DNA from: an uncultured Prevotellaceae bacterium
GTDB taxonomy: Bacteria > Bacteroidota > Bacteroidia > Bacteroidales > Bacteroidaceae
DNA: 49,151 nucleotides
Assembly (NCBI GenBank): GCA_900314985.1
Contig: OMXL01000033.1
Location: 1-49,151 of the forward strand
Reading direction: 5' to 3'
Made by a program: the position numbers and the translations under genes. Below are positions 59-15,070 of this stretch, piece after piece; position 1 is the first letter of the stretch; each line of letters starts with the position of its first letter. The notes under the pieces are model-generated. The model was given only the letters and a program-made list of their open reading frames with translations, was not told where the DNA came from and made no database searches.

Positions 59-943
59 TCAAAATGAGATATATAATAAAAAATTAACTAAGTATTGATT
101 CTTATTACTATTTCCTATTTCCTTTTTTGTAGGAAGATCCTCTAAAGATGTAGTCCGGGTATTGCCATCTTCATCTATATATACCTTTTCTACTTCTAAT
201 CCAAGTCTACAATCTAAATTGATTCTGACTATTTGCTTGTACTTGATTTCCGTAGACGAATATGTACAAACATATAATCCGCGACCGATTTCTTTCTGCG
301 CAGATCTATATATTGGGTTTTCATTTAGACGCGAAGAAACAAGATTATCACCCATGCATAATATATTCAGTTGTTCAACATTTTCTGGTCCTGCGTACTT
401 AATTACATCCACCAACGTTTCCCATACAAGATTACTATCGAACACTCTACCATCAGGGTATTTAACACGAATGATATAGCGAGATACTCTTTTCTTTTGT
501 GTCTCGTCTTGTTTTTCATCATCTTCTGAACGTGTGATAACAGAAGTATCTCCATCTATATAGGCCTGTACAACACCGCGTTTTTTGTCGCGAAAAACCC
601 ATGCTGGCCCCCATTGGGTACGATAGACAAAATAACCTCCTAAAGATTTGAGCGCATTTTTGTGAGGCTTCGTATCGCCGACTACAGCTATAGTACGTTC
701 TCCATAATCGACAATTCTTAGTTCGCCTGATATGGATTCTATAGGTAAATCATTACTTACTATTTCACCATTGACAACAGCATTATCTTCAGCTTTCTTA
801 TCATTGTCAATTACAGCAATTTGCTGTTCCACAGGATACTCCTCCATCTTTTCCTTGATGGCATATTCAAGGATAGGACTCAGCGGAAGATTATATTTCC
901 TAATGAGATTCAGTATAAGTTCAAGCTCTTCTCTCTCTTTCAT
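59..943 (-). CDS. BREX-linked accessory protein, three-part, function unknown
   Basis: This is a 294-residue protein and the last gene of the BREX operon. It starts at ATG 943 behind a clear GGAGAG ribosome site, 10 nt after the preceding gene. Three parts are visible. Residues 4-33 are a helical module that is nearly the same as the start of the preceding gene product, including LPxSPILEYAI. Residues 80-130 contain IAVVGDTKPHKNALKSLGG and a WGPAWVF segment, resembling a small domain I recall from Bacteroidota DNA-associated proteins, where it is followed by a GWIF-type motif. Residues 153-275 contain a YPDGRVF start and an IKYAGPENVEQL segment, also familiar from Bacteroidota hypothetical proteins. 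A charged linker (about 131-153) joins the last two. No catalytic motif, signal peptide or membrane segment is visible. Its place in the operon suggests a helper or targeting role in defence. That role is inference; the reading frame is secure. Confidence 0.8.
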   Translation of the reverse strand: MKEREELELILNLIRKYNLPLSPILEYAIKEKMEEYPVEQQIAVIDNDKKAEDNAVVNGEIVSNDLPIESISGELRIVDYGERTIAVVGDTKPHKNALKSLGGYFVYRTQWGPAWVFRDKKRGVVQAYIDGDTSVITRSEDDEKQDETQKKRVSRYIIRVKYPDGRVFDSNLVWETLVDVIKYAGPENVEQLNILCMGDNLVSSRLNENPIYRSAQKEIGRGLYVCTYSSTEIKYKQIVRINLDCRLGLEVEKVYIDEDGNTRTTSLEDLPTKKEIGNSNKNQYLVNFLLYISF

Positions 944-953
944 ACTCTCTCCA

Positions 954-1565
954 TTATCTTAAATAAGTTTCTATAAGGGCTTCCTTCAATTTTGAACAAT
1001 CTTCTCTATTTTGCATAAGAGAAAACAGTTGTTCATCGACATAAGCGTATTTTATGACATTACGCTTCTGACCAACCGACGGATGACCTGCAAAGCATAA
1101 GAGATTATGCAAGATGTTCTCATCCTCCAACGCTTTAAAATGCCAGAAAGGTTCACTCTTCATATACCAAAAAGGTATCCATACAGAGGGAATCTTGTTG
1201 TTATGCAGATAATCTCCCCATGTGCTGGCGAAAGTATTTGCAATAGTTTTATCCAAATGAATTATGTTTTCCGATATTGTACCATTATCAACTAAATTCA
1301 AAACACTTAATAACAAGACTGCTTTATGAGGCAACTTCTTTCCATTCTGAACTCCTGTTGACAAATTTCTAAAGGTATCTACATACGAAGTGTTAGTAAC
1401 AACATTGGCTGTCTCTTCGGCTGGAGTAGTTTTCTGCGGAAGTGTAGTAGATGACGTATTGCCATCTAATTTCTCCTGAATAGCATATTCAAGGATAGGA
1501 CTCATGGGCAAATCATGTTTTTTCATAATTTGCAACACCAGTTCGAGTTCTTCCTTCGTCGTCAT
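954..1565 (-). CDS. Small protein resembling a ScoMcrA-type DNA sulfur-binding domain, with shared N-terminal module
   Basis: This protein is about 203 residues from ATG 1565. A TTG at 1574 overlapping the brxL stop is the alternative start. Residues 2-31 repeat the helical module of the next gene (EELEL, then LPMSPILEYAI). After a Thr-rich linker comes a domain starting FRNLSTGVQNGKKLPHKAV, followed by LLLSVLNLVDNG and, later, IPFWYMKSEPFWHF. This pattern (PHKP/A-LLLL ... PFWxLxxxxFW) is the one I know from the sulfur-binding domain of ScoMcrA-like HNH restriction enzymes that recognise phosphorothioated DNA. No HNH nuclease motif follows; the chain ends after the domain. If the match is right, this would be a reader without its own nuclease. 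It sits directly after brxL in the same operon. Assignment is by motif memory only and is moderately sure. Confidence 0.6.
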   Translation of the reverse strand: MTTKEELELVLQIMKKHDLPMSPILEYAIQEKLDGNTSSTTLPQKTTPAEETANVVTNTSYVDTFRNLSTGVQNGKKLPHKAVLLLSVLNLVDNGTISENIIHLDKTIANTFASTWGDYLHNNKIPSVWIPFWYMKSEPFWHFKALEDENILHNLLCFAGHPSVGQKRNVIKYAYVDEQLFSLMQNREDCSKLKEALIETYLR

Positions 1566-1570
1566 ATTTA

Positions 1571-3007
1571 TCAATGTTGTTTTATCGTGTAAGCAGGTAT
1601 CGGTTTCGAGAACGATGCTTCTGCATCTATGTTACTACATTGCTGGCGTACTATATCACGGCGACGAATAGCCGGTTGCAAGCAGAATGCATTAAAATCA
1701 TCCCAATCTAACTGTTCTATGGATGTTACATGGGGAAACAGTAATTTCATATATGCTGTGGCAACTTTCTTTACCGCTTTCGTATGTCTCATGTCAGCTC
1801 CATTAGGAACTACAATTGCTTCATCAACAATATGTGAATAAACCGATTCTGTACGCATCTGGTGTAGTACCTCTGAGAAGAACTCGACATTCAGAGTCCA
1901 GTCATGTAGAGCCATGTCTACGTTTACTCTGGGCAATAGCCATCCCTCAATCATGCCATGAAAGCGGTCCAATAAAGCAGATTCCCTAAACACCTCTGGT
2001 AAGGCCGAGAAATACTTGTAGCTCAGAGGCTCGTTGTTTTCTGACAACAGTATATTACCCAACAGCATTAAGCCACACTCTGACATAAATTCATAGTTGT
2101 CAATAGTTGCCTTACCAAATTCCAGGTAGTTTTTCAAGAATGATTGCATCTCTGTATTGTCAGAGAACGTGATGGTCTGAATCTCATCAAAAGCTACCAT
2201 ATCATAGAAACGCATAATACCAGGAGCTTTGGTTGATTTGTCGTATACCAGTTTAGCACGGGAAACCTTACCACCGCTGACAAGCCAGACGAACTTTGAC
2301 AAATTACCAAACACATAGCTTTTACCAGTTCCCTTTGGTGCCAGTTCTATTAAATTCAAACGAGGTTCAATAAAGGGCAACAGTCGAGTCAGAAACTCCA
2401 GCTTTTGCGTCATATTCTTAAACGCAGATGGAGTGTATTCCATGGCAGAGATTAAGACATCCACCCATTCCTCTAATGTAAACTGGGCACGGCATTGCCT
2501 GATATAATTGATGTCAAGTTTCTGCATGGGACGGAATGGCTTAAACTTCACCATTTCTACGTGTCCTGCCTCACGCTCTTGAGGTTGAATATAGACAATC
2601 TTCATGATTCCCCATTTCTCGCCATCAATCAAATCATCAGGATATTCTTCAATAAGGTAATCAGGTATCAGCGTATCAGATGCCTTTATACCCATATCTG
2701 GTATCTGGAAACTTGTCTTGTTCTGCGCCAAACTGGTTGATACCACGAAGCGGGTCAGTAGCGTTAGCGTTTCACCCCTACGTAATCTGGCCCTGATAGC
2801 GCTATTATCACTTGGAATATGCGCATCAAGAAATCGCGATAGCTCTGCTCGTTTAAAAGAACCGTCTGGAGCAATGTGCGTCGAAATCAAATAGTCCTTG
2901 ACAAACGAAGGAAGATTTCTTCCACTAAAGATATCGTAATTGGCAGGGTTCTTATACACGGCAGCAGAGCCAAAGACTTGCCTTATTTTTTCTCCTATTG
3001 CACTCAT
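1571..3007 (-). CDS. brxL: BREX AAA+ protein BrxL, short form
   Basis: This is a 478-residue protein. The N-terminal region opens with MSAIGEKIRQVFG and continues through DYLIST and the LPDYLIEEYPD-like segment typical of BrxL. A Walker A motif (PKGTGKS, residues 224-230) and a Walker B motif (VAFDEIQ, about 271-277) define an AAA+ ATPase core. In BREX systems BrxL forms a ring on DNA and is needed for defence. The longer BrxL of type I BREX carries a C-terminal Lon-like protease domain. Here the protein ends soon after the ATPase part, with no recognisable Lon Ser-Lys dyad region. The start is ATG 3007, 2 nt after the pglZ stop, so translation is probably coupled. The family call is strong from motif plus operon order. 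Confidence 0.8.
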   Translation of the reverse strand: MSAIGEKIRQVFGSAAVYKNPANYDIFSGRNLPSFVKDYLISTHIAPDGSFKRAELSRFLDAHIPSDNSAIRARLRRGETLTLLTRFVVSTSLAQNKTSFQIPDMGIKASDTLIPDYLIEEYPDDLIDGEKWGIMKIVYIQPQEREAGHVEMVKFKPFRPMQKLDINYIRQCRAQFTLEEWVDVLISAMEYTPSAFKNMTQKLEFLTRLLPFIEPRLNLIELAPKGTGKSYVFGNLSKFVWLVSGGKVSRAKLVYDKSTKAPGIMRFYDMVAFDEIQTITFSDNTEMQSFLKNYLEFGKATIDNYEFMSECGLMLLGNILLSENNEPLSYKYFSALPEVFRESALLDRFHGMIEGWLLPRVNVDMALHDWTLNVEFFSEVLHQMRTESVYSHIVDEAIVVPNGADMRHTKAVKKVATAYMKLLFPHVTSIEQLDWDDFNAFCLQPAIRRRDIVRQQCSNIDAEASFSKPIPAYTIKQH

Positions 3008-3009
3008 AT

Positions 3010-5454
3010 TTATAGTTCGAACATTTCGTTAATATCAGAATTTCCACTCAAGCCTACAACCTTGATAGTAAATTGATGACTCGGTGCGCCATCGGGTTTG
3101 ATGTCTATTACATGGTTCCCTTCTGTCATATCTTGCAACAAAGCAGACCACTGAGTACCAACACGATCCATCTTATAATTCTTGCCTTCACACGTAAGAG
3201 TCACCCCTGTTGGTTCAGGTATGACAGTCAGTCTGACTGCTGGGTTAGAAAGCATAATATCCTCATTAGACATCTTTACCTCATACTTGATTTGCGTTGG
3301 CACATTCTTATTGGAGAGTAGAAGGAAAGGAACCAACACTTCCTCTGGTGTACATCCACCATGAACCTGATGAGTAGGTGCCTTAGACAATGAAGAATGT
3401 GTAAGGGCTACTTTATAGTATTCGCCATCCGTTTCGTTTTGGTGAACTAAATAATCTGGGTCTGATAATGCATCCTGAGTTGTTTTAATGTAACGTCCTT
3501 CATGCTCAAATTTACCATCATACTTTTTAGATGGTGCCTTTCTCGACATGCAACTTAGACCATGATCTGAAACGATGGCTACAGTACAAGGCTGTTTTTT
3601 GCTGCTTCCAACAATCTCATGGATAATCTCTTTAAGTACAGACAATTCCTCTTTTAGTGTATACAAGTATTTGTAAAGGTGGGAATCGTGGCCTAATTCA
3701 TCCAAAGCGCCAAACTTGGTTACCGTTTCGCCTTCAAACCTGTTATGGAAAGTAGATGAAGGTATGTCAGAACGTACTATTTGAGAACGGACTACTTTCA
3801 TGTTGCTCTGCTCCTTTTCTAACAGGTACAGTAAATAAGACAGAAACTCAGCTCCTAAGCCATCTATCCAATAAACTTTATCTGGCTCATATACAGGAGT
3901 CGAACTGACTTCTGCTAAAAGGCTATGGGAATTTTCAAACTCGTAGAACCACTTATAAAATGTTTTGGCAGAATCATTCTTTTCTTTGATAAAATGTATA
4001 ATGTCGTTTGTATATTTGTCTGCCAGCTTTGCCTGCTTATACGCGGCAATATAGTCTATACTCCATTGATTCTCCGTTCTGAAGTGCGAAGGTTTCACAG
4101 ATGTGATGTAAGCAAGGAATTCAGGGTAGAACACCTTTATGGTTTCTCTAAGCTTTGAATTGTTTGGATAATGTGCATACCAACCCATTAGGAGAATCTT
4201 TTTATAGTCGAAAACACCTGTGCAGACATTCAAAGCAGCACTTAAATCTTCCGATTGCTGGAACAATTCCTTTGTACGTTCAAATAGCCAATTCTGTTCA
4301 TCAAGGCTTATTGCCTCCAAGAAGGTTTTGGCATTATCAACAATAATTGTTCTTCGCTCAGCAGCAAATGTATCTCTGTCTTTAATTGGAAGGTCATAAA
4401 GAATTCTCGTTGCAATGAGCGAAGCCAGTTGATGTGCATCGTATAGGTCAGAAATACTATCTACACACATTGCCAAATAAGGGGATGAGTCCTTAAACTG
4501 GGTGTGTAAAACGTACTTCTTCAAAAGCCAGCGATGATAGGCTGTGTTATTGGAGTTCAACCATTCTGAGATAACATCGGAAGCCGTGAGCGAAACTTTA
4601 TTAAAATATGCACGTGCATACGACTCAAAGCCAAATGAGGATGTGTCTTTTCTATCGAGGCTATCCATCAATTGATCCCAATATTCTCTCTCTTCCTCAA
4701 CGTACTCAAATGGAAATGACAGCTCCAAAAACATGGTCATAAACTCGTATGCACTTCCAATCTTGGTAAAGTTGAAAATATTGTCTGGTTTTGAGTACTT
4801 GAATTTTGCTGAGATGGGGACAGATGTACAAACTATGCGCTCTTGTGGAGCTTGCACCTTCCAAAATTTTAGCCAATCTCTCAAAGAGTCCAGTTGGCAT
4901 TGTATTTCACCACTCGGCAACTTAAAGTCTTTGTATTTAGCAAAGAAAACCTCTACCGACTGTGGCTCTGCGTCATATCGCCAGATAGGGGCACTTTCTT
5001 GTATACGTGCAAAATGATTTAAGAAGTCAGTAAAACGATTCTGTAGTCCAATAAGCGGGACATAGATGCGTTTCTTTGGATGGTGTATGTCTTCAAGAAG
5101 CATTATCTCATTGAAGAACCCACGAAAATCATCATCGTTGTAAAAGCGTACAAGTTCAGAGAAAGGAGATACAAAGGTTGATTCTTTGCATTCCTTCATA
5201 GCTGCTTTCAATGTGTCCTTGGTTATCCAGGTGTCATCTTCGCCATCATCTATGAGTGTTTCCAAATCCAATGCTTCAACCCCGATGTTTGCCATAAACT
5301 TCGCTAAGTTCTTAAACTCATTGAAATTGTTGAGCATGATAAAACGAATGGCATATCGCTGTGCCAACATATCGCCATTATCCTTATCACGGATAATTTC
5401 ACGAGTCAAATCCTCAAAGGACTTAAAAACGGTTATTTTCTCTGCGGAATCCAT
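3010..5454 (-). CDS. pglZ: BREX alkaline-phosphatase-like protein PglZ
   Basis: This is an 814-residue protein. The N-terminal ~500 residues are a helical region without motifs I recognise. The PglZ domain follows, with metal-site motifs YWIDGLG (about 528-534), VSDHG (628-632) and HGGCTPEEVLVPF (698-710), the order expected for the alkaline-phosphatase superfamily. A C-terminal beta-rich tail of about 100 residues closes the protein. PglZ is a core component of every BREX type and is required for both host DNA marking and phage exclusion; its exact reaction is unsettled. It lies 12 nt downstream of brxC and 2 nt upstream of brxL in one operon. The protein appears complete, with all three metal motifs kept. 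Confidence 0.88.
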   Translation of the reverse strand: MDSAEKITVFKSFEDLTREIIRDKDNGDMLAQRYAIRFIMLNNFNEFKNLAKFMANIGVEALDLETLIDDGEDDTWITKDTLKAAMKECKESTFVSPFSELVRFYNDDDFRGFFNEIMLLEDIHHPKKRIYVPLIGLQNRFTDFLNHFARIQESAPIWRYDAEPQSVEVFFAKYKDFKLPSGEIQCQLDSLRDWLKFWKVQAPQERIVCTSVPISAKFKYSKPDNIFNFTKIGSAYEFMTMFLELSFPFEYVEEEREYWDQLMDSLDRKDTSSFGFESYARAYFNKVSLTASDVISEWLNSNNTAYHRWLLKKYVLHTQFKDSSPYLAMCVDSISDLYDAHQLASLIATRILYDLPIKDRDTFAAERRTIIVDNAKTFLEAISLDEQNWLFERTKELFQQSEDLSAALNVCTGVFDYKKILLMGWYAHYPNNSKLRETIKVFYPEFLAYITSVKPSHFRTENQWSIDYIAAYKQAKLADKYTNDIIHFIKEKNDSAKTFYKWFYEFENSHSLLAEVSSTPVYEPDKVYWIDGLGAEFLSYLLYLLEKEQSNMKVVRSQIVRSDIPSSTFHNRFEGETVTKFGALDELGHDSHLYKYLYTLKEELSVLKEIIHEIVGSSKKQPCTVAIVSDHGLSCMSRKAPSKKYDGKFEHEGRYIKTTQDALSDPDYLVHQNETDGEYYKVALTHSSLSKAPTHQVHGGCTPEEVLVPFLLLSNKNVPTQIKYEVKMSNEDIMLSNPAVRLTVIPEPTGVTLTCEGKNYKMDRVGTQWSALLQDMTEGNHVIDIKPDGAPSHQFTIKVVGLSGNSDINEMFEL

Positions 5455-5466
5455 GACCTTTCGATT

Positions 5467-8400
5467 TTAGCTTCCAAGATATGATATCAGGAATTGAGAA
5501 ACTTCTGGGTGTTCCTCTATCAAGTCAAGTATAACCTTCTGCCACATCATGCTTGGCATGGTTTGTTCGCGAACCAATGTCTTGGCCATCTTAATATCAT
5601 CTGGCTTTGCTTGTATAGGAGTCGGTATTGGGTCTGGCTCTGCTGCCATTTCCCCAGGCATGGGCATTGGTTCAGTCTTCTTAATCTTATTGATATAGAA
5701 AGACATTACAGCGGAACGTACATCTTCCTCTCTGCGAAAAGCTATCTCTGATTGTAAATGTCCCAGCTCCTCTTCAAGTTCCTCCCACCATTCGGGTTGA
5801 AGTTCAACATCCTTAATATTGTTGATAAAATTCTTAAAGCCTTCCTGGTAGTTGGCAGAATTTGTACATAGTTTGTATAAATCTACTTGGCCAACTTCTT
5901 TTATCTCATGATATAGAGATTTGATTTTGTCGAGTGAATAACTATCTTGATTAAAGAGTGAGATTAAATCCTTGATGGCTTTGGCGCAAGCCTCTTTCTC
6001 ATCTATCTTGCTGCAATAGAGTAAAGACCACAACGGATATTTTGCTATTTGCTTACAAAACTCCGTGATACTCCATTTCGCATAATTTAGACTTTTGAGA
6101 TCACTTAGGCTTACACCCTTTACAACGCTCAGATTAAAGATTTCCCCAAGAATACTTGTTAGATTTCGCTCTTCAGCTGAACCAAAACGAAGAAGCAACT
6201 TATTACTGGTCTCGCTGCTGCCATTATCCCACATCTTGAGAAGAATCTCAATCATATCATTCAGTTTCTCGTCACCAACAGGCTGAGATGTACTGGGATT
6301 AAACAAGTCTTCCTTATGCTTTCGTAGTGCATACGAGAGCGCAACGTAGTTTGCCTGATTTGCGAACAGGCCAAATGGTTCACGAATGAGAGGCTCTAAT
6401 ATGTCGCTCAATGAGAAGCGGTCTGCATATCGTTTCTTAGCTGCAGCAATCAAACTATCAACCTCTTTGCAAATAGCGACAAGCCAAGAATCTCCTGCTA
6501 ATGCTGCGTCAGTCAATTCACAGGCATCATTAACAAGGTTGTTTTCGCCATCTAAGAATATTTTCTTGGCCGGTCTGCTCGAACCGCCAAAATTCAACAA
6601 CTCGTCACGTGTACGCTTTTGGAGCATTTGCAACGAAAGGGCCTTATAATTCTTATTAGCAAAGAAAGTAACAGGCTCGTTTTGCAACGCCTTTACACTT
6701 TCCATGCCACGGGGGAATACCTGGGCGCTGAATTTCTTATTGATAATGCTATAGATATTATTGAATATGCCTTCTGAGCTGCGCTTTCCATTAATGTATA
6801 AGTTATATGTGCCATTCATCATTCGCATCTTCCACTTTGCGATATATTCTCTTGCTGTTTTATCAAACTGGCTAGCATCGTCTGTGTTAAAGTGTGAACG
6901 ACTTACATTCGCCTGAGTTATAACATCGATAAATTGATTTTGGGCTGTGGTCGTAAATACTTCAGAAGGAATGATGAAAATAGTGTTTTCAAATTCTTCA
7001 GAGAAATCCTTAACTCTGTTTTCCATCATGTCCCTTGATTCATCAGTAATGGAGAAGAAAACGCATACATGAAGGAAGTTGGGCTTTTCTCGAGTGTATT
7101 TGTTTAGCTTACTACGCAGAATTGCTTCTTGGTCCTCACAAGAATAGAATCTTGGTTCACATTTTCGGAAAAGACGATAACCTACAGAAAACAAAGAAAT
7201 GCATTCATTAATACATTGCTGGTTATAAACCAAGTAATCTGTTGACATTTTATACTGGGCCAATACTTTAGCCTTTTCCTGTGCTATTTCAATTGGATTA
7301 TATGATGAAACAGATATCTTGAAATCTCCAAAAATATCGCGTGCTACAATCTTGCTCTCATCCAACCAGTTGAGGATTTTTTCCATCTTGTCTTCACAAC
7401 GGTCTCCTGAGAATATGAAAAGAAGATTTCTCTCATTGGGAGCATACTTTTCAGGTGATTGCTTTTTGTCAAAACGAACTCCGAGAGCATTTAAGAGGAG
7501 TATAGCTTTGAACACGCGTACATAATCGTCGCCCATTTTCTCCACACGGGCCAGATTGCTCATATAGACATTGGTAAATGCAGAACAACGTGCATCGTTA
7601 TTAAACTCAGAATAGAAGAAATCCCACAACCAGTCTGCCGTTAGCATCATCTTCTGTTCGTAGTTATTTTCGTCACCAATGAATCCTTTGAAACCATTTT
7701 GCTCGTCGTTCATGAACTTAAGGACACTACGGTTAGCAGAGCCCATGATGTTCGACATCTTAGAGCAAAGGAATGCAGTATATGGATGCAGCGGGAACAA
7801 GTTGTGGATATGCTCCTTTTCCTCTGTTGAACTACTTTCACATAGGTAGTCATAGAGGTTAACGTCTAATTTCTTGGCCACTTTCCATGCTGTCATTGCT
7901 AACTTTGAAGTATCAGGGATTGTGAAGGTGTGACGCAAAATGAGATAGGTGGAAATTTCGTCCATCTGGTAGTCAACACTATCATAACGGTCACTCATTT
8001 TCGTAATGTCTTTACCTTTTGTATCAAAGCTGGAACTTTCAGTCCTATGGGAAATTAGATATAGGAATACATTGTTGTTTTGTGACTTCTCGGCGATATT
8101 TTGCAAAACGTTAATGCGATCGCTCTTCAACGTATCCATCACACTTGTGAACTCATCCCAAAATATTATCAAACCATTAGCGATACCGGCTGTCTCTATC
8201 TCTTTCTCAACTTCTACAAGCCAATCGCTAATACTATCGCTAGTCAAATATGTATCATCAGCAGCCAGGACTTCCTCTAAATGAAGGAAAACGTCTATGT
8301 CATTTGCTTGAAGTTTAGCCAACAGTTTTTCGTATGAGGGTGCTTCAGATGCCAATTCATCACTTAATTCTAACAACTCAGGAATACGAGCTTTATGGCC

Positions 8401-8889
8401 TTCAACCCAGCGGATAGCTTTGTCGAAGTCTGAATGTACTACAATCTCTTTATGACCTGCCGATGCCAACGCTAACTTTGTCTGCTTCTGTATTGACAGA
8501 GAGAAACGTGGGATATTATAAGCACCTTCGACACCTTTTAGCACCACAGGGAAATAGGTCTTTTTCTTGCGTATTGCTGCCAAATTAGCCCGTAACGATT
8601 CATTAGGAAGATTTTGGATATAGTCATCTACTTCTGGCGCAGGGTCGCATAGAAGATGGCGGACTACACTACTGGCGTGACTCTTACCAGTACCAAACGT
8701 ACCACGAACCCACATTGAACGGCGTTTGCTTATTTCTGATGACGTAATAGCTGTCACGCTTCTGCTTAATAAATCGCAGAATTGTTTGGTGGGGATGAAA
8801 GTTCGCCACATTTCTGGTGTTTCATCGGTCATATCATAGACAGGCAGGAAGTCCTGCATTTTGATATAGTCTGAATATTTAGTAGCCAT
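5467..8889 (-). CDS. brxC: BREX large P-loop ATPase BrxC/PglY
   Basis: This is a 1140-residue protein starting MATKYSDYIKMQDFLP. The Walker A motif is RGTFGTGKSH (about 62-71) and the Walker B motif is IIFWDEF (241-247). The rest is long and mostly helical, with a Pro-rich low-complexity linker near the C-terminus (MPMPGEMAAEPDPIPTP, about 1080) before a final helical cap. BrxC/PglY proteins are the largest ATPases of BREX systems and are essential for defence. It starts 30 nt after the brxP stop and is followed by pglZ. It is full length, with no frame break. The subtype assignment (type 4) comes from the neighbouring brxP, not from this protein alone. Confidence 0.87.
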   Translation of the reverse strand: MATKYSDYIKMQDFLPVYDMTDETPEMWRTFIPTKQFCDLLSRSVTAITSSEISKRRSMWVRGTFGTGKSHASSVVRHLLCDPAPEVDDYIQNLPNESLRANLAAIRKKKTYFPVVLKGVEGAYNIPRFSLSIQKQTKLALASAGHKEIVVHSDFDKAIRWVEGHKARIPELLELSDELASEAPSYEKLLAKLQANDIDVFLHLEEVLAADDTYLTSDSISDWLVEVEKEIETAGIANGLIIFWDEFTSVMDTLKSDRINVLQNIAEKSQNNNVFLYLISHRTESSSFDTKGKDITKMSDRYDSVDYQMDEISTYLILRHTFTIPDTSKLAMTAWKVAKKLDVNLYDYLCESSSTEEKEHIHNLFPLHPYTAFLCSKMSNIMGSANRSVLKFMNDEQNGFKGFIGDENNYEQKMMLTADWLWDFFYSEFNNDARCSAFTNVYMSNLARVEKMGDDYVRVFKAILLLNALGVRFDKKQSPEKYAPNERNLLFIFSGDRCEDKMEKILNWLDESKIVARDIFGDFKISVSSYNPIEIAQEKAKVLAQYKMSTDYLVYNQQCINECISLFSVGYRLFRKCEPRFYSCEDQEAILRSKLNKYTREKPNFLHVCVFFSITDESRDMMENRVKDFSEEFENTIFIIPSEVFTTTAQNQFIDVITQANVSRSHFNTDDASQFDKTAREYIAKWKMRMMNGTYNLYINGKRSSEGIFNNIYSIINKKFSAQVFPRGMESVKALQNEPVTFFANKNYKALSLQMLQKRTRDELLNFGGSSRPAKKIFLDGENNLVNDACELTDAALAGDSWLVAICKEVDSLIAAAKKRYADRFSLSDILEPLIREPFGLFANQANYVALSYALRKHKEDLFNPSTSQPVGDEKLNDMIEILLKMWDNGSSETSNKLLLRFGSAEERNLTSILGEIFNLSVVKGVSLSDLKSLNYAKWSITEFCKQIAKYPLWSLLYCSKIDEKEACAKAIKDLISLFNQDSYSLDKIKSLYHEIKEVGQVDLYKLCTNSANYQEGFKNFINNIKDVELQPEWWEELEEELGHLQSEIAFRREEDVRSAVMSFYINKIKKTEPMPMPGEMAAEPDPIPTPIQAKPDDIKMAKTLVREQTMPSMMWQKVILDLIEEHPEVSQFLISYLGS

Positions 8890-8919
8890 ATTACTTGATT
8901 TTAGATTTTCTTGTTTAAA

Positions 8920-11475
8920 TTAGAGCATCAACTTTAGTACATCAACAGAGGTTAAATCCTCACGTAATATGATGTTGTCAAGACCCATGTTCAACTCTAC
9001 ACGCAATACATGATTGCTTTCCTCCTGTAAGGAAAGAAGCAAACTTTCAAGAGTATCTTTACTAATTCCAAATTGACGGTATATTCCTTCAGTCTGATTC
9101 TCATCATAGAATTCTGACACGTTAAGAGAGTAGCGCTTTTTACGTTCAGCGTATCGATATAGTGAATAAGCTAAAGCAACAAGTGAAATGCCATCATGAG
9201 GTTGGCGGATCAAGGCGACTTTGTTCTGCTCTTTGCCTAACACACCGACTGGGATGGAAGAGCCCAATGGACTTTCTTTGAAAGTGTTTAATAACGAATT
9301 AAATGGATTGCGTAGCGTCCTGTCCTTAAGTTCTGGATATGAGTCCTGCAAAATTATATCCATTTCTTCGCGAGTATAACTACGGTTATAATCGATGGCA
9401 CTATGGAACCAGGAACAGATTTCACTATTATAACATAGTCCAATAAATATCAGCTCCCAAACTGTCTGTGTTTTTGCTCTATAGGCTTTAGCCATATATT
9501 GCCCAGCTTCACTAATATTCTTGTCTTCTGCATTAAGGATATAAGCCTCACGAAGCCAATTAATGAATGGAGGTATTTGATATTTGGGATTTAGGCCGTG
9601 TTCATTATTGTCGAAAAATGATTCGTATGTATCGAAGTATTTTTCCACCCAATTCTCACGCATACCCATACCGTCATTGTATCGGTTAATTCCAGATTTT
9701 GAACCTTGCGCCACATTTTTAATCTGGTTTGTCATTATGCTTGTGTCAGATGTACTTATAGAACTAGCAGCATGACATCCCTTACCATCGAAATCAATGC
9801 ATTTCAGGCAATGTACACACTTTTCTTTGTTTATTGTGGCTCTTGGCACTACAGACAATGCTCCAGTTGGGCATTCAACTTCACACACTTCACAATGAAC
9901 ACAATAAGTCGCTTTATAGCAGACTTTCTTGAGATGACTTACAAATACAATATCTTTGGGGTCTATTCCACAAACTTCCAGGACCTGACTATCGCCTTTT
10001 TCTTCTAATCGGCATTTGTATATTTGTTTTTTATGTTTGAGGTCAATGTCTGTAATATTGCCATCTTGATGTATGTTCATGTCACCTAAAACCCTCATCC
10101 ACATTAATAAGTTTTCCTTAGGCGCAGTTAAAATCGCTTTGAAATCAGGCGCAACACTCATGAAATTCACATTTGCGTTTGTGTGCAAGTATCGACCGCC
10201 GGCCCTCATTTTCCATCTTCCTGTACGGATATAATTCTCTATCCCTGCAGTTTTACTTCTTTCAAGCCCTTCCCGTATCTTATTTACAAATGGAGCAAGC
10301 GTTTCTGGATATAATTGACCACACAAATCCTCGCTCCAGCTAGAAGAATAGGGACATATTACACAACCGACTCGTGAAAGTCCTTTTCTATATGCCTCAT
10401 TAACAGGAAGCCCATTGAGTAGCAGATAAAGATATATCTCTGTTGCATTCCATTCAAGAATCGGGCTAACATTGATAATCTTGTTATGTTTTACATTTTT
10501 TCCAATTCTCGAACGCGAGGATCGACTGGGACTTTCCTCTGCACGAACACCATCAAACAATATGGCATTGGGTTGTTTTCCGTTGCCAACTATTTCCTTA
10601 AGTAATTTACTTAATGGGGCAGATTTCATTATACTACAACACCATCTGTGTATTCTGCTTGGTGTGCCGATTTCATCCCAGTAATGCAAGACTGGCTGAT
10701 GGTTCTTGGCAGTATAAAATCTCAGGTTTGGATATTTCTGTATATAAAAATCCTTAACCTCATTGTATAAGCTTAAAGAAGGTGGCAATTCATACCCTGT
10801 ATCGGAATAAATAACAACAACATCTTCAGCTGGGACAACTCTGGTTACTAAGTCAAGAACAACTTGAGAATCTTTTCCTCCACTAAAAGAAGTAACAAAG
10901 ATATCAGTATTGCTTGACAGTATAGGAGCCTTCCCTTGCTCTTCTGCCTTACTTAGTGGCATTACATCGAAACTATCGCAATCTTCCTTAATTACCACAT
11001 GCTCTTCTTTTGTCTTCTTTTCAAGAGAAGATGCGAGTCGTTGAAAATCTAAATCTGGATTTTTTTGCGAGACCTCGCGGATATTCTTATATCGACGATA
11101 TGTTTGGTTGATGAAATCCATTGCTTCGTGTTCGATAATAAACATTGTGTCCTCGTTGCGAGAACGCAAACGTTCCATATCAACTGGTTGTAACGTCAGG
11201 ATTTCATAACCTTCTTGCTGAATAACCTCAGGCGCATCAAAAACATTGCCGCCTTTCACTTCAAGCACAAACTGCCCCTTATAGAAATATCTACGATCGC
11301 ATGCCCATAGCAAAGGCTCTTCAACGTGAGGATATATCCAACCACGTTTATTCAATCCCAACAAATCAAGTTCTTCCCAGAATACAGGTCGGGGCGATAC
11401 ATTAAGCGCATCACCTTTACTCGACATCGTCAATCGAACACCATTATATGCTGGATCCCATATTACTTTAAACAT
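8920..11475 (-). CDS. brxP: BREX type 4 PAPS-reductase-like protein BrxP with ferredoxin domain
   Basis: This protein is 851 residues from ATG 11475. A GTG at 11526 would add 17 residues, but the ATG has GGAAAG about 11 nt upstream. The order of parts is: an N-terminal BREX-specific region; a PP-loop ATP pyrophosphatase motif SFSGGKDS (about 196-203); paired Cys (WCCSIM, about 279-280) and GCVICP (370-375), as in DndC/PAPS reductases; a di-cluster ferredoxin segment (CVHCEVCEVECP, about 525-536, then CVHCLKC and GKGC, about 553-567); and a helical C-terminal region. PAPS-reductase-like enzymes activate and move sulfur, and DndC of DNA phosphorothioation is the best-known DNA-linked relative. 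A protein of this type in place of the PglX methylase is the hallmark of BREX type 4. It is the first gene of the operon, preceded by a long structured leader. Confidence 0.85.
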   Translation of the reverse strand: MFKVIWDPAYNGVRLTMSSKGDALNVSPRPVFWEELDLLGLNKRGWIYPHVEEPLLWACDRRYFYKGQFVLEVKGGNVFDAPEVIQQEGYEILTLQPVDMERLRSRNEDTMFIIEHEAMDFINQTYRRYKNIREVSQKNPDLDFQRLASSLEKKTKEEHVVIKEDCDSFDVMPLSKAEEQGKAPILSSNTDIFVTSFSGGKDSQVVLDLVTRVVPAEDVVVIYSDTGYELPPSLSLYNEVKDFYIQKYPNLRFYTAKNHQPVLHYWDEIGTPSRIHRWCCSIMKSAPLSKLLKEIVGNGKQPNAILFDGVRAEESPSRSSRSRIGKNVKHNKIINVSPILEWNATEIYLYLLLNGLPVNEAYRKGLSRVGCVICPYSSSWSEDLCGQLYPETLAPFVNKIREGLERSKTAGIENYIRTGRWKMRAGGRYLHTNANVNFMSVAPDFKAILTAPKENLLMWMRVLGDMNIHQDGNITDIDLKHKKQIYKCRLEEKGDSQVLEVCGIDPKDIVFVSHLKKVCYKATYCVHCEVCEVECPTGALSVVPRATINKEKCVHCLKCIDFDGKGCHAASSISTSDTSIMTNQIKNVAQGSKSGINRYNDGMGMRENWVEKYFDTYESFFDNNEHGLNPKYQIPPFINWLREAYILNAEDKNISEAGQYMAKAYRAKTQTVWELIFIGLCYNSEICSWFHSAIDYNRSYTREEMDIILQDSYPELKDRTLRNPFNSLLNTFKESPLGSSIPVGVLGKEQNKVALIRQPHDGISLVALAYSLYRYAERKKRYSLNVSEFYDENQTEGIYRQFGISKDTLESLLLSLQEESNHVLRVELNMGLDNIILREDLTSVDVLKLML

Positions 11476-11551
11476 TACTTCATTTACTTTCCGTTCTACA
11501 CTATACTTGCAAAAGGAAAAGGACACAAAAATGGCGTGAAGACATCCTTAT

Positions 11552-11728
11552 GCACTTAACCTGAGGGGCGGTGTCTGGAAAACGGGACCCCTAGCAACTA
11601 CTAAGAATGCGACACGCCAAAGCGTGTGCAATGCTATTCTGTTGCTATGAGGTAGCCATCCAGGCCTCCCTCTGCTCTATGAACGAACTATCCCAAATTT
11701 AGTTTTCCAGACACCTTCGGTTAAGTGC
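11552..11728. repeat. Long inverted-repeat element in the BREX leader
   Basis: The ends are inverted copies: GCACTTAACC (11552-11561) with GGTTAAGTGC (11719-11728), and GGTGTCTGGAAAAC (11570-11583) with GTTTTCCAGACACC (11702-11715). Inside is a second nested hairpin: TAGCAAC/GTTGCTA (11592-11598, 11641-11647), AGAAT/ATTCT, and a perfect ACACGC-CAAA-GCGTGT tip at 11612-11627. The AGGGG at about 11563 could instead pair with CCCCT at 11588-11592, giving a competing fold. No target-site duplication or transposase was seen, so it could be a MITE remnant or a regulatory leader RNA. Confidence 0.75.
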
Positions 11729-11743
11729 GTTTCAATAAGCAAT

Positions 11744-11775
11744 GCATCATTGGTTCTGGATTTCTCCCCGAACCA
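11744..11775 (-). other. Hairpin at the predicted 5' end of the BREX transcript
   Basis: Just after the promoter at 11780-11811, the minus strand reads ATTGGTTC, a short loop, then GAACCAAT. This hairpin would sit at the very 5' end of the BREX mRNA and could stabilise it. It is seen in the sequence; the role is inferred. Confidence 0.5.
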
Positions 11776-11777
11776 AT

Positions 11778-11833
11778 TGCAAAGATACAAATTAATTTAT
11801 ACAATTGCAAGATTTTAGCGAAAAGATTTGGAA
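11778..11833 (-). promoter_or_regulatory. BREX operon promoter, copy 1 of a 56-bp repeat
   Basis: On the minus strand the repeat carries CTTG (11811-11808), 20 nt, then TATCTTTG (11787-11780), a good Bacteroidota promoter pointing into the brxP leader. The start point would be near 11772. The 56 bp match 12694-12749 with about one difference. The upstream half contains TTTTAGCGAAAA, a near-palindrome that could be an operator. The repeat also encodes the last residues of the KilA-N protein. Confidence 0.7.
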
Positions 11834-12670
11834 ACAAAAAAAGAAATCAGCGAGATATTTTATGAAATACCTCGCTGACTCTCTGTATGCCTGCATCTGG
11901 TGGATAGCAATCTGATTGAGCTTAATAAGTCGTTCACCCTGTGGTATACCGTCGTTAATTAGAACGGAATTAAGATTCTCCATATTGGCTAGGCAGATGA
12001 GCTCATTAATGGTGGCATAGTCGCGAATATTGCCTTTCAGTTCAGGATTGGCCTCTCGCCATTGCTTTGCTGTCATACCAAACATAGCTACATTTAAAAC
12101 ATCAGCCTCCTCGGCATAGATAACGCTGGCCTGTGCAGGCGTCACTTCGTCTGGTACTAGGTTGTTCTTGATGGCATCTGTATGAATGTGATAGTTCAGC
12201 TTTGATAGTTCGCGTTTGGCAGTCCATGCTATCTGCTTCTGTTCAGCGGCCTTCATACGTTGGTACTCCATCACAAGATAGAGCTCAAACTCTACAGCCA
12301 CCCAGTTGGCGAATTTGAAAGCAATGTCGTGATGAGCATAGGTCCCTCCGCCAGCACCACTCTTAGTAACAATACCTATAGCTCCTGTTATTTCAATCCA
12401 GCGAGTGGGGCTCATCGTGAACGAATTACTTCCAGCTTCTGCCAAAAGGGGGTCGAATTCGACCCCTTTAAAGGATGGATTATACAATCTCTCCCATAAC
12501 CCTAGATATTCCAGGGTATTTTTCTGTCGCATCCAGTTCTTAACAACATCTTTTGGCTCTGCCTCATTCTTCTGACGAGCAATGTCTGTAATACAAAGAT
12601 AATCCTTGCCATTAACTTTTATGGTGCGGATATTCACATCCTTTACAGTTATCAAATTTCGTTTGGCCAT
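11792..12670 (-). CDS. KilA-N domain protein
   Basis: This protein is 292 residues from ATG 12670 (MAKRNLITVKDVNIRT). An upstream in-frame start near 12706 lies inside the promoter and is rejected. The first ~125 residues show the KilA-N pattern: DYLCITDIARQK, NWMRQKNTLEYLGLWERL, and FTMSPTRWIEITGAIGI with GGGTYAHHDIAFKFANWV. The C-terminal part (FGMTAKQWREANPELKGNIRDYATINELI) is the helical tail common in Bacteroidota KilA-N proteins. KilA-N is a DNA-binding domain of phage and mobile-element proteins, often antirepressor-like. The last ~13 residues are encoded by the promoter repeat of the BREX operon. It may regulate the region through the shared promoter sequence, which is inference. Confidence 0.85.
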   Translation of the reverse strand: MAKRNLITVKDVNIRTIKVNGKDYLCITDIARQKNEAEPKDVVKNWMRQKNTLEYLGLWERLYNPSFKGVEFDPLLAEAGSNSFTMSPTRWIEITGAIGIVTKSGAGGGTYAHHDIAFKFANWVAVEFELYLVMEYQRMKAAEQKQIAWTAKRELSKLNYHIHTDAIKNNLVPDEVTPAQASVIYAEEADVLNVAMFGMTAKQWREANPELKGNIRDYATINELICLANMENLNSVLINDGIPQGERLIKLNQIAIHQMQAYRESARYFIKYLADFFFCFQIFSLKSCNCIN

Positions 12671-12693
12671 CAATTCATCATTATGTAATATAC

Positions 12694-12749
12694 TGCAAAG
12701 ATACACATTAATTTATACAATTGCAAGATTTTAGCGAAAAGATTTGGAA
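12694..12749 (-). promoter_or_regulatory. KilA-N gene promoter, copy 2 of the 56-bp repeat
   Basis: On the minus strand CTTG (12727-12724), 20 nt, TATCTTTG (12703-12696) gives a start near 12689, about 19 nt before the ATG at 12670. It is a near-exact copy of the BREX promoter at 11778-11833. The TTTG at 12743-12746 on the plus strand also serves as the -33 box of the divergent RNA promoter, so the two promoters overlap back to back. Confidence 0.7.
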
Positions 12750-12774
12750 TTATCAGAAATAGTTCCTATCTTTG
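12743..12774 (+). promoter_or_regulatory. Promoter of the double-hairpin RNA
   Basis: TTTG at 12743-12746, 20 nt, TATCTTTG at 12767-12774. This is a textbook Bacteroidota promoter followed directly by a non-coding, structured transcript. It is divergent from the KilA-N promoter and overlaps its upstream half. Confidence 0.7.
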
Positions 12775-12779
12775 CAGCG

Positions 12780-12917
12780 TGAAAGGAACCTATTTAGGGT
12801 AAGAGCCCCGTTTGGATCGGCAAGCGACTTACTAAAATAGAAGCACTTTTTGCTCTGTTTAGGACAAGAGCCCCGTTTGGATCGGCAAGCGACTTGTTAA
12901 AACGGAGCTTTTTTATT
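12780..12917 (+). ncRNA. Unidentified non-coding RNA of two tandem hairpins with terminator
   Basis: Two units of 65-bp period carry an identical 30-nt core (12801-12830 and 12866-12895). Each core is closed by a flanking stem whose bases differ but still pair: GTAAG/CTTAC in unit 1 and ACAAG/CTTGT in unit 2, with outer CTATTT/AAATAG and CTGTTT/AAACGG. These paired changes argue strongly for an RNA fold. The second stem extends to GCTC/GAGC and is followed by TTTTTTATTTT, so it doubles as a Rho-independent terminator. A strong promoter sits just upstream. No open frame is present. I do not recognise the family. The transcript ends against the 3' end of a convergent gene. Confidence 0.7.
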
Positions 12918-13350
12918 TTCTAAGCTCACTGATACTAGCATTAAATGTATGCTCATCGATAATAGCATAAGGCTTAAAGATATTACCATCTTCAAGTTTG
13001 CGCATACAAAGAAATGTTTTACATCCAAGTTCACGTGAATAGTAAGCGAAATAGGCACTTTCCATATGCTTTCCTTCAGCTACAGGACGCCAACCAAGAT
13101 ATTCCGCTTTTTCCAAATAGTTACGAATATCTTTAGTTAAAGCATTTTTTATAGCATTGAACTTGTTATTCCTAACATTCTTGCCAAGTACAGTTTTCAG
13201 GTCGGACTTAGTAATTTCCACATCCATGGTTATGCCATTAGTGATAGTAAACCGCATAGGGTGCTCCTTTAGAACTTCTGCCATTTCAAGCACCTCTTTA
13301 CGAATCCGTTTACTCTCGATATAGTATTCTTCTTCAGTCCTTTGCTTCAT
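12913..13350 (-). CDS. 145-aa protein, possibly phage-type nuclease-like (weak)
   Basis: This is a small soluble protein. The N-terminal ~35 residues form a charged helix, followed by MRFTITNGITMDVEITKSDL, a conserved-looking helix (KNVRNNKFNAIKNAL), EKAEYLGWRPVAEG, an aromatic strand and a final FKPYAIIDEHTF. The layout recalls the barnase/EndoU/RelE-like nuclease domains of large phage proteins (LPD3/PBECR-like), but no catalytic residues can be assigned. Its promoter (13355-13385) ends only 4 nt before the ATG at 13350, so the message is nearly leaderless, or translation starts at Met22 or Met32. It converges on the double-hairpin RNA, and its mRNA would run antisense through it because no minus-strand terminator is seen. 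Confidence 0.7.
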   Translation of the reverse strand: MKQRTEEEYYIESKRIRKEVLEMAEVLKEHPMRFTITNGITMDVEITKSDLKTVLGKNVRNNKFNAIKNALTKDIRNYLEKAEYLGWRPVAEGKHMESAYFAYYSRELGCKTFLCMRKLEDGNIFKPYAIIDEHTFNASISELRK

Positions 13351-13354
13351 ACTG

Positions 13355-13385
13355 CAAAGTTACGAATAAGCGAGGAAAAGACAAA
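13355..13385 (-). promoter_or_regulatory. Promoter of the 145-aa gene
   Basis: On the minus strand TTTG (13385-13382), 19 nt, TAACTTTG (13362-13355). The ATG at 13350 follows almost at once. Confidence 0.65.
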
Positions 13386-13435
13386 ATAAATGTCGATTAA
13401 TTTTTCCTTTCGAGCGAAAGTATCTTCGACGAAGT

Positions 13436-13489
13436 CAGAGATACAAAGAAAAATGTATTAAAACAAGATTTTAGCGAAAAGATTTGGAA
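13436..13489 (-). repeat. Partial, decayed third copy of the promoter repeat
   Basis: The 26-nt block at 13464-13489 is the same as the upstream half of the 56-bp repeats. The promoter spacing is kept (CTTG, 20 nt) but the -7 box reads TATCTCTG, so it is probably weak or dead. A small palindrome (GTATCT ... AGATAC) covers the would-be start point. Confidence 0.6.
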
Positions 13490-13673
13490 TATTCAGATAA
13501 TGAGATATCAAATACAGATACAGATGATACAGATGGTTTTTAAAAACTTATTTAGGGTAACAGTGTGAATACTCATATTATAAGGTACAGGTACGCGTAG
13601 CCTTTTATGATTTTATACAGCTGTCTCGTGAGCGTATTAGTTGTATAAAATTCACGGCTACTTTTTGGGACTT
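13490..13673 (+). other. Gene-free stretch with a second structured RNA-like element
   Basis: The 377 bases 13351-13726 hold no gene. At 13550-13566 the words CTTATTTAGGGTAACAG resemble the start of the double-hairpin RNA, and ATAAG downstream could close a stem. At 13597-13668 there is a large hairpin (GTAGCC/GGCTAC, then TTTTATACA/TGTATAAAA) followed by TTTTT, which looks like a terminator on the plus strand. Short repeats of CAGATACAGAT type lie at about 13510. It may be a diverged relative of the first RNA. Confidence 0.45.
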
Positions 13674-13700
13674 TCGCATACATAATAATAAAAAATGTAG

Positions 13701-13708
13701 TATATTTG
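13701..13708 (+). promoter_or_regulatory. -7 box of the GH13 gene
   Basis: TATATTTG lies about 19 nt upstream of the chosen ATG 13727. A -33 box is not clear (TTTTTGGG is about 30 nt upstream). Confidence 0.5.
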
Positions 13709-13726
13709 CAAACGCAAACCAAAACT

Positions 13727-15070
13727 ATGAAAAGTAATTTGCTTATGAAGAAACTATTTCTGTTTATCAGTATCGTGGTGGCTATGGCAAGTTGCAAGCC
13801 AGCACAACAGACCAAGGAAGTGGAATTTAAGATGCCCGCAGTAGAAGACATCGCCATGTATCAGGTGAATCCACGCGTATTTGCTCCTGACCATTCGCTG
13901 AATGCCGTTGCCGAGCGCATCGATTCTATCCGTGCACTGGGTGTGAACGTAATGTGGGTGATGCCCATCTACCCTATTGGCATTGAGAAGGGTAAGAACT
14001 CGCCCTACTGTATCAAGGACTACAAGGCTATCGCTCCAGAGTTTGGTACTATTGACGACTTCAAGCACCTGACAGAGGTGTGCCACGAGCACGGCATGGG
14101 AATGATACTGGACTGGGTGGCCAACCACACGGCATGGGATCATCCTTGGGTGAAGGCGCACTCCGACTGGTACACACACGATGCGAAGACGGACACCATT
14201 ATGTGTCCGCAGCCTTGGAACTGGGAGGACGTGGCCGATCTGAACTATGACAACCTGGATATGCGCAAGGCCATGATTGACGCCATGAAGTTCTGGATTG
14301 TCGAGGTGGGCATCGATGGTTTCCGTTGTGATGTGGCCGATGGTGTTCCTGCCGACTTCTGGAAAGAGGCCATCGACACGCTGCGTCAGGCTGCTGACAG
14401 TCGTAAGATTGTGATGCTGGCAGAGGGCAAGAACGTGGATAACTTTACCGTTGGTGGCTTCGACATGAACTACGGTTGGGACTATAAGGACGTGCTGGTG
14501 AAGGTATGGAAGGGGGCTCCTGCCGCTGACCTCATCGAGGCTGACAAGGAGGAATACGACGGTCTGCCTGCAGGCAAGGTGAAGCTGCGCTTTACCACCA
14601 ACCACGACCACTCTACAGAGGCTACGCCCTGCGTAGAGTTTGGCAACGACCGTGGTGCGATGGCGGCCTACGTGGCCAGCATCTTCCCACATGGTGGAGC
14701 ATTGATATACGGTTCGCAGGAGGTGGGCTATCCAGAGCCTATCAACTTCTTTAAATATGTAGCCGTTGACTGGAATGCCAAGCCAGAAATCTACAAGGAG
14801 TATCAGCAGCTAATAGGTCTTTACAACGACTACCCTGCCCTACGCAAAGGTTCGATGTTAGCATGGCCTAACGACGACATCCTGCTCTTCGAGAAAAAGG
14901 ACGGTGACGAGCAATTCTTAGTGGCTGTCAACGTGCGCAACCAACAGAAGAGCATCGGACTGCCTGACAGCTGGAGCCAGCGCGAGGTGACAGATATGAT
15001 GACGGAAAAGAGCGTCAAACTGGAAGACCAACTCAGCTTAGAGCCCTTCCAATACCTGATACTACGCTAA
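13727..15070 (+). CDS. GH13 alpha-amylase-family lipoprotein
   Basis: This protein is 447 residues from ATG 13727; ATG 13745 is an equally usable start. A TTG at 13706 is excluded because it lies in the -7 box. A short hydrophobic signal ends in the lipobox MASC, so the mature protein is probably lipid-anchored. The GH13 barrel shows VNPRVFAP near the start, LDWVANHTAWDHPW, catalytic Asp in GFRCDVAD (about 202), the acid/base Glu in MLAEGK (about 233) and the third Asp in TTNHDHS (about 294). A short beta domain closes the protein. It should cleave or rearrange alpha-glucans or maltooligosaccharides; the exact specificity cannot be read. It ends tail to tail with the AEC gene with a 9-bp overlap. 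No SusC/SusD genes are next to it. Confidence 0.88.
   Translation: MKSNLLMKKLFLFISIVVAMASCKPAQQTKEVEFKMPAVEDIAMYQVNPRVFAPDHSLNAVAERIDSIRALGVNVMWVMPIYPIGIEKGKNSPYCIKDYKAIAPEFGTIDDFKHLTEVCHEHGMGMILDWVANHTAWDHPWVKAHSDWYTHDAKTDTIMCPQPWNWEDVADLNYDNLDMRKAMIDAMKFWIVEVGIDGFRCDVADGVPADFWKEAIDTLRQAADSRKIVMLAEGKNVDNFTVGGFDMNYGWDYKDVLVKVWKGAPAADLIEADKEEYDGLPAGKVKLRFTTNHDHSTEATPCVEFGNDRGAMAAYVASIFPHGGALIYGSQEVGYPEPINFFKYVAVDWNAKPEIYKEYQQLIGLYNDYPALRKGSMLAWPNDDILLFEKKDGDEQFLVAVNVRNQQKSIGLPDSWSQREVTDMMTEKSVKLEDQLSLEPFQYLILR

Follow-up and report, generated by a model that had tools for sequence, protein, structure and literature searches.

The BREX operon and the SBD206 gene

The window, i.e. the whole stretch of 49,151 nucleotides analysed here (contig OMXL01000033.1 of an uncultured Prevotellaceae bacterium), carries at positions 59-11526, entirely on the minus strand, the genes BrxP, BrxC, PglZ, BrxL, SBD206 and acc294 in this order (Table 1). 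Gene families were assigned by Pfam and PADLOC scans at E-values up to 0.1. With BrxP, BrxC, PglZ and BrxL co-occurring, the operon is a type 4 BREX; these four genes stand in the same order as in the known brxPCZL systems, and the window has an SBD gene and a tagged partner in addition. BrxP matched the PADLOC family PDLC02510 (E 9.5e-250) and the Pfam families PAPS_reduct (2e-33) and Fer4 (3.7e-5), and its DUF4007 match (6.7e-5) lies below the curated cut-off of that family. It was the sole PAPS-reductase match in the genome of the window, and the initial annotation had correctly placed SBD206 in one operon with such a PP-loop/ferredoxin enzyme: both genes lie on the same strand, with BrxC, PglZ and BrxL between them. 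Just upstream of BrxP, a KilA-N domain gene (11792-12706, minus strand) matched the PADLOC candidate PDC-S22 (E 1.8e-125).

Table 1. Features of the operon, with positions in the window and the basis of each assignment.
Feature	Position	Strand	Basis
BrxP, PAPS-reductase domain, ferredoxin-type Fe-S, DUF4007-like C-terminus	8920..11526	-	Pfam and PADLOC
BrxC, related to SspC	5467..8889	-	PDLC02472 E 6.9e-136; SspC PDLC02779 E 1.1e-21
PglZ	3010..5454	-	PDLC02542 E 4.3e-78
BrxL	1571..3007	-	Pfam/PADLOC; 5 nt from BrxL stop codon to SBD206 ATG
SBD206, nuclease-free SBD protein	954..1565	-	ATG at 1565; SBD homology
SBD206 N-terminal tag, residues 4-37 (MTTKEELELVLQIMKKHDLPMSPILEYAIQEKLD), common to next gene acc294	1464..1565	-	Shuffle test and orthologue identity
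SBD206 linker, residues 38-62, unconserved	1389..1463	-	8-50% identity, 4 orthologues
SBD206 sulfur-binding domain, residues 63-206	957..1388	-	phmmer, profile and pocket alignment
SBD206 H83-K84, aligned with ScoMcrA H116-R117, wall and charged part of sulfur pocket	1323..1328	-	Profile alignment
SBD206 I133-P134-F-W-Y137, aligned with ScoMcrA Y164-P165-F-W-A168, pocket lid and floor	1164..1178	-	Profile alignment
acc294, tag, middle domain and C-terminal domain	59..943	-	Starts 10 nt after SBD206 stop
acc294 tag, residues 1-35, two helices	839..943	-	Shuffle test; low to moderate confidence model
acc294 C-terminal domain, residues 152-257	173..490	-	Separate gene beside SBD genes in L040, L051, L057

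Type 4 BREX is presented as a phosphorothioate (PT) DNA system in the passages of PMC12839542 and PMC11931770 that cite Yuan et al. 2024, and both sources cite published PT in host DNA for other type 4 BREX systems. Since PT in type 4 BREX is thus already in print, the inference of the initial annotation that the mark of this system is a DNA sulfur modification is right but not new. The parts named for the type in PMC12839542 are BrxC, PAPS-reductase, DUF4007, BrxL and PglZ, together with a proposed cysteine desulfurase; the account of type 4 BREX given there includes no SBD and does not explain how, if at all, the system recognises the mark it makes.

The open reading frame of SBD206 spans 954..1574 on the minus strand, where an in-frame TTG stretches it to 1574, and its residues are numbered here from this TTG. 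Translation from the first ATG (1565..954) gives 203 amino acids plus the stop, which comprise the tag, the linker and the SBD, and the orthologue in locus L032 begins at the residue corresponding to this ATG, 3 nt past the BrxL stop. By sequence, SBD206 is a nuclease-free sulfur-binding-domain protein. Searched with phmmer, it matched the solved SBDHga1 (8h0l) over residues 64-194 with an E-value of 1.2e-15, and profiles of 16 and 17 relatives matched the same structure at 3.3e-29 and 1.6e-29, respectively; the SBD of ScoMcrA (5zmo) was a weak match of the 17-relative profile (E 0.036). No Pfam or PADLOC family was found in the protein at E-values up to 0.1, and hence no HNH match, which agrees with its initial description as a sulfur-reader-like protein lacking an HNH motif. 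The AlphaFold2 model of SBD206, built from 4 sequences, was too poor to use (pLDDT 37.4). A search of viral contigs and phages gave no matches, and among plasmids SBD206 matched 11 records, 9 annotated as HNH endonuclease and 2 as hypothetical.

The sulfur pocket of ScoMcrA is lined by H116, R117 and P165, and its lid Y164 is poorly conserved (PMC6224610). H83, K84 and P134 of SBD206 fall on the three lining residues, and I133 and Y137 on the lid residue Y164 and on A168, respectively. Among 34 SBD rows compared, the K84 position holds K in all 34 and the P134 position P in 33, and at the H83 position there is H in 16, A in 17 and N in 1; the lid position, I in SBD206, is occupied by T, K, N, L, Y, Q or S in relatives. 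The PHKAVLLL and PFWYMKSEPFW patterns from which the initial annotation had recognised the domain are both present, and this reading of the motifs was right because the pocket residues align and the SBD homology goes beyond chance. Judged by sequence, SBD206 shares its domain, along the whole length of that domain, with SBDHga1 and the SBDs of the PT-dependent HNH nucleases ScoMcrA, SprMcrA and EcoWI. It differs from them in having no nuclease or SRA domain (an HNH in the same chain, as in endonucleases of the ScoMcrA type, was not detected), in lying in a PT-type writer operon and in bearing a docking-like N-terminal tag.

SBD genes in BREX and other PT operons

A search for BrxP in 399 genomes of the family of the window gave matches in 19 genomes and 20 loci. 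L077, a fragment of 61 residues that lies at the end of a contig, was excluded, and 19 usable loci remained. Around the 18 loci other than the window, up to 20 kb was taken and SBDs were sought with a profile grown from the domain in the window. An SBD gene was found in the operon at 12 of the 19 loci, namely in the window and in 11 of the 14 loci of a B-type BREX, the BrxC of which is 26-29% identical to that of the window (in L074 the contig stops before BrxC and the B-type assignment comes from BrxP). In these 11 loci the SBD gene directly follows BrxP at a distance of -4 to +4 nt and encodes 139-150 amino acids (97 in L074, where it is cut), and in all ten loci where the next gene is visible it is BrxC. 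The profile search over up to 20 kb found no SBD gene in the remaining three B-type loci (L063, L065, L075), nor in any of the four other loci of the A-type, to which the window belongs (L059-L062, BrxC 44-89% identical). Because none of these four A-type loci in the family sample has an SBD, the domain appears dispensable in the A-type. Three further A-type operons (L032, L033 and L034), which lie outside the count of 12 in 19, having been found by the SBD query itself, also carry an SBD after BrxL (81, 66 and 54% identical, respectively). The divergent f18 BREX loci of another family, L078 (20 kb) and L058 (15 kb), contained no SBD.

We also searched 11 whole genomes with SBD-less or uncertain BREX loci using profile A5, which gave two matches at an E-value of 1e-3: one (G124) is the other BREX locus of that genome, already counted as L074, and the second (G141) is a 45-position fragment close to a contig end. 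BrxP was found in three plasmid records, including one Methanosphaera plasmid present twice, in which no gene is annotated between BrxP and BrxC. The slot after BrxL is occupied in L061 by a 940-aa gene with a weak sigma-region-4-like match followed by a SIR2-like gene, in L062 by an acc-C-type gene followed by RhuM, and in L066 by a gene that matches the RNA polymerase alpha CTD.

SBD genes recur in further PT operons, which, like the tag described below, goes beyond the initial annotation. They stand last in two DndC-DndD-DndE-Pbe operons (L041, L045) and in two SspC-SspD-Pbe operons (L042, L043). The order in L041 is DndC, DndD/PbeC-like, DndE, PbeA, a small gene, PbeC, an unnamed gene and SBD, and L045, whose scan covered the first three genes, has the same gene order. 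In L042 we found SspC, SspD, PbeA, a small gene, PbeC, an unnamed gene and SBD; L043 follows this order, with SspC identified by scan, the PAPS enzyme by BLAST to BrxP and the Pbe type by gene order. The last product of the latter two operons (L042 1-11555 and L043 993-12457) is an SBD-Myb fusion protein. In L057 and L040 the SBD gene comes after DndD-like and DndH-like genes and a homologue of the acc294 C-terminal domain; L051 has this order and the acc match, to which the scan was limited there. Locus L057 belongs to the same genome as the window (contig C26, 40000-57284, operon at 7123-14606) and consists of a ResIII-type helicase, a 71-aa gene, a DndD-like, a DndH/HerA-like and an acc294-C-type gene and the SBD gene; no PAPS reductase was found in this genome apart from BrxP.

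In the tree of the 34 SBD rows, the A-type (4) and B-type (10) BREX SBDs lie across a split supported at 99/95. A single branch for all BREX SBDs was rejected (AU p 9.4e-5), in a test picked after the tree on groups named before it was known. The simplest account of these sequences would be two separate recruitments of SBDs into BREX, with transfer out of BREX as the alternative. The A side, with the PHK motif, includes SBDHga1, the HNH-fused SBD of L035 and the Pbe-linked SBDs, and the nearest relatives of SBD206 on it are those of L041 and L045. The B side carries AKP, i.e. the B-type BREX SBDs have A at the H83 position, and this lineage also adjoins genes of non-PT systems, a cytosine methyltransferase (L053) and the Druantia-type DruE (L050).

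SBDs in PT operons have a published counterpart in the SBD+SAD(SRA)+HNH genes that PMC10853773 reports from Dnd loci of 698 taxa; those are nuclease-fused, whereas no nuclease fusion was detected in the SBDs described here. According to the figures given in PMC7461809, dnd genes lie near nuclease-fused SBDs in under 3.6% of cases, but the notion that such SBDs avoid PT writers is not relied on, because of the 698-taxa report. In the article passages and sections searched (Yuan et al. excepted), we came across no PT or BREX operon described as carrying a stand-alone SBD and, as far as this search goes, a nuclease-free, tag-bearing SBD as a recurring part of PT operons appears to be new.

The matched N-terminal tags and acc294

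SBD206 and acc294 open with a matching segment of about 34 residues (58.8% identical), the score of which was reached by none of 2000 shuffles. A model built from ten tags and run on 3184 ORFs of the fetched loci found only the same ten below an E-value of 0.1, all of them downstream of BrxL in A-type operons. Across four SBD206 orthologues, identity runs at 76-91% in the tag, 8-50% in the linker and 56-85% in the SBD, and in all six orthologue pairs the value for the tag exceeds that for the SBD. The dN/dS of the tag was 0.08-0.22 in the four of six pairs in which it was computable, and that of the SBD 0.12 in the single computable pair, the remainder being saturated in both cases. In the model of acc294 the tag forms two helices (residues 2-16 and 23-34) at a pLDDT of about 60-70.

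The SBD and the acc-type gene of L057, and likewise of L051, carry a mutually matching tag (0 of 2000 shuffles each). A kinship of the window tags with those of L057 was dropped, as 212, 216, 799 and 1808 of 2000 shuffles reached the respective scores; the only common element is the pattern LP-x-S at the same offset. The match is therefore one within a single system, since the L057/L051 tag is not significantly like the BREX tag. Two A-type loci, L059 and L060, keep the tagged acc protein with the SBD absent, therefore the tag serves more than pairing with the SBD protein, as would be expected if it docks to a common partner. In the five other tag-bearing loci BrxL is 94-99% identical to that of the window, in the tagless L061 and L062 67-68%, a pattern that fits BrxL as the putative docking partner.

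No Pfam or PADLOC match was found in acc294 at an E-value of 0.1. The protein is shorter than its orthologues (339-775 aa), its last residues diverge from theirs, and 58 bases separate its end from the start of the contig; its shortness may thus reflect a truncation or the assembly edge. Domains of the acc type are fused to SBDs in L040, L042, L043 and L053: residues 468-773 of the L034 acc protein match the SBD protein of L043 (54%, E 1e-97), residues 278-387 of that of L032 the SBD protein of L040 (44.5%, E 7e-24), and residues 104-214 of that of L033 the SBD proteins of L053 (E 1.8e-12) and L042 (E 3.4e-9). acc294 itself is without the domains that are SBD-fused elsewhere. These fusions and the neighbouring-gene pairs argue that SBD and acc proteins probably act together.

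Possible roles of SBD206

On balance, we lean towards SBD206 being a reader subunit of type 4 BREX that would be docked through its tag, bind PT and test DNA for the self mark; from the gene comparisons we infer here the PT binding, the docking and its target, and the self-sensing purpose. BrxP and BrxC, perhaps with PglZ, would put phosphorothioates into host DNA, the SBD arm of SBD206 would bind these marks via the known sulfur pocket, and the helical N-terminal tag would dock SBD206 and acc294 onto a BREX component, for which BrxL, encoded just upstream, is our guess. With this, the complex might check DNA for the self mark and, depending on the outcome, steer restriction or additional modification. 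A published precedent for such a role is SspE of the SspABCD-SspE system, presented in PMC9646914 as a PT reader that couples reading of the self mark to defence; SspE combines NTPase and nickase in one chain, whereas SBD206 would be a stand-alone reader and, as far as compared here, belongs to a different sequence family. The initial annotation had proposed a sensor, guide or regulator instead of a cutter, and its interpretation as a whole is supported in part: the genome comparisons speak more for a reader that acts together with the writer/defence complex than for a cutter or a regulator of transcription. Points against a reader are the absence of the SBD from several BrxP loci, the B-type SBDs without H83, whose lineage also occurs next to non-PT systems and so argues against a role in PT alone, the change from Y164 to I133 at the lid, and the lack in acc294 of the domains fused to SBDs in other loci.

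The loss of the histidine in the B-type SBDs and the altered lid residue could also suit a subunit with a general DNA-binding or structural task in the writer/defence complex, one that has lost sulfur reading, as could the SBD-like relatives beside the cytosine methyltransferase and the Druantia-type gene. We regard this as rather unlikely for SBD206, in the branch of which PHK and P are kept as in the Pbe, HNH-fused and SBDHga1 rows, and the closest tree relatives of which sit in a DndCDE-Pbe operon. It is improbable, too, that SBD206 is a type IV-like restriction arm which recognises PT of another sequence context in foreign DNA and leaves its destruction to BrxL/PglZ or acc294. SBD proteins with a demonstrated role, as reported in PMC6224610 and PMC7461809, are indeed PT-dependent nucleases, and most plasmid records matching SBD206 bear the HNH endonuclease annotation, but neither SBD206 nor acc294 has a nuclease domain detectable with Pfam or PADLOC, and the operon would mark the host itself with PT. 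Least probable in our estimate is a regulatory role, in which SBD206 would bind PT close to promoters or in the operon itself and adjust expression or the level of modification. A small DNA reader with no enzyme domain would be suited to this, and PT effects on transcription are reported in PMC9239176. Against it, SBD206 lies immediately behind BrxL, the B-type SBD gene directly after BrxP and, where BrxC is visible, between two writer genes, and the tag is common to SBD206 and its neighbour, which points to complex assembly.

Beyond the reader in the window, we tentatively raise a wider possibility, to which we give clearly less than an even chance: an exchangeable, nuclease-free PT-reader cassette, made of an SBD and an acc-type partner. 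Type 4 BREX would have acquired this cassette on two or more occasions, and Dnd-Pbe, Ssp-Pbe and orphan DndD/DndH-like systems would have taken it up as well. The parts of the cassette would be fused in some systems, in others short matched, system-specific tags would hold the reader on the defence complex, and the cassette would be a common self-recognition part of PT systems. The stand-alone SBD, which stands directly after BrxP in most B-type loci and behind BrxL in the window, is a concrete candidate reader of the type 4 BREX mark, and the matched tags offer a testable idea of how such a reader attaches. Should PT binding be demonstrated, proteins like SBD206 could also be used as nuclease-free reagents for capturing PT DNA. 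Separately, an SBD-like domain in L053 (5043-11268) is fused to DUF6339 beside the cytosine methyltransferase and a PDC-M33A candidate, a possible non-PT use of the SBD fold.
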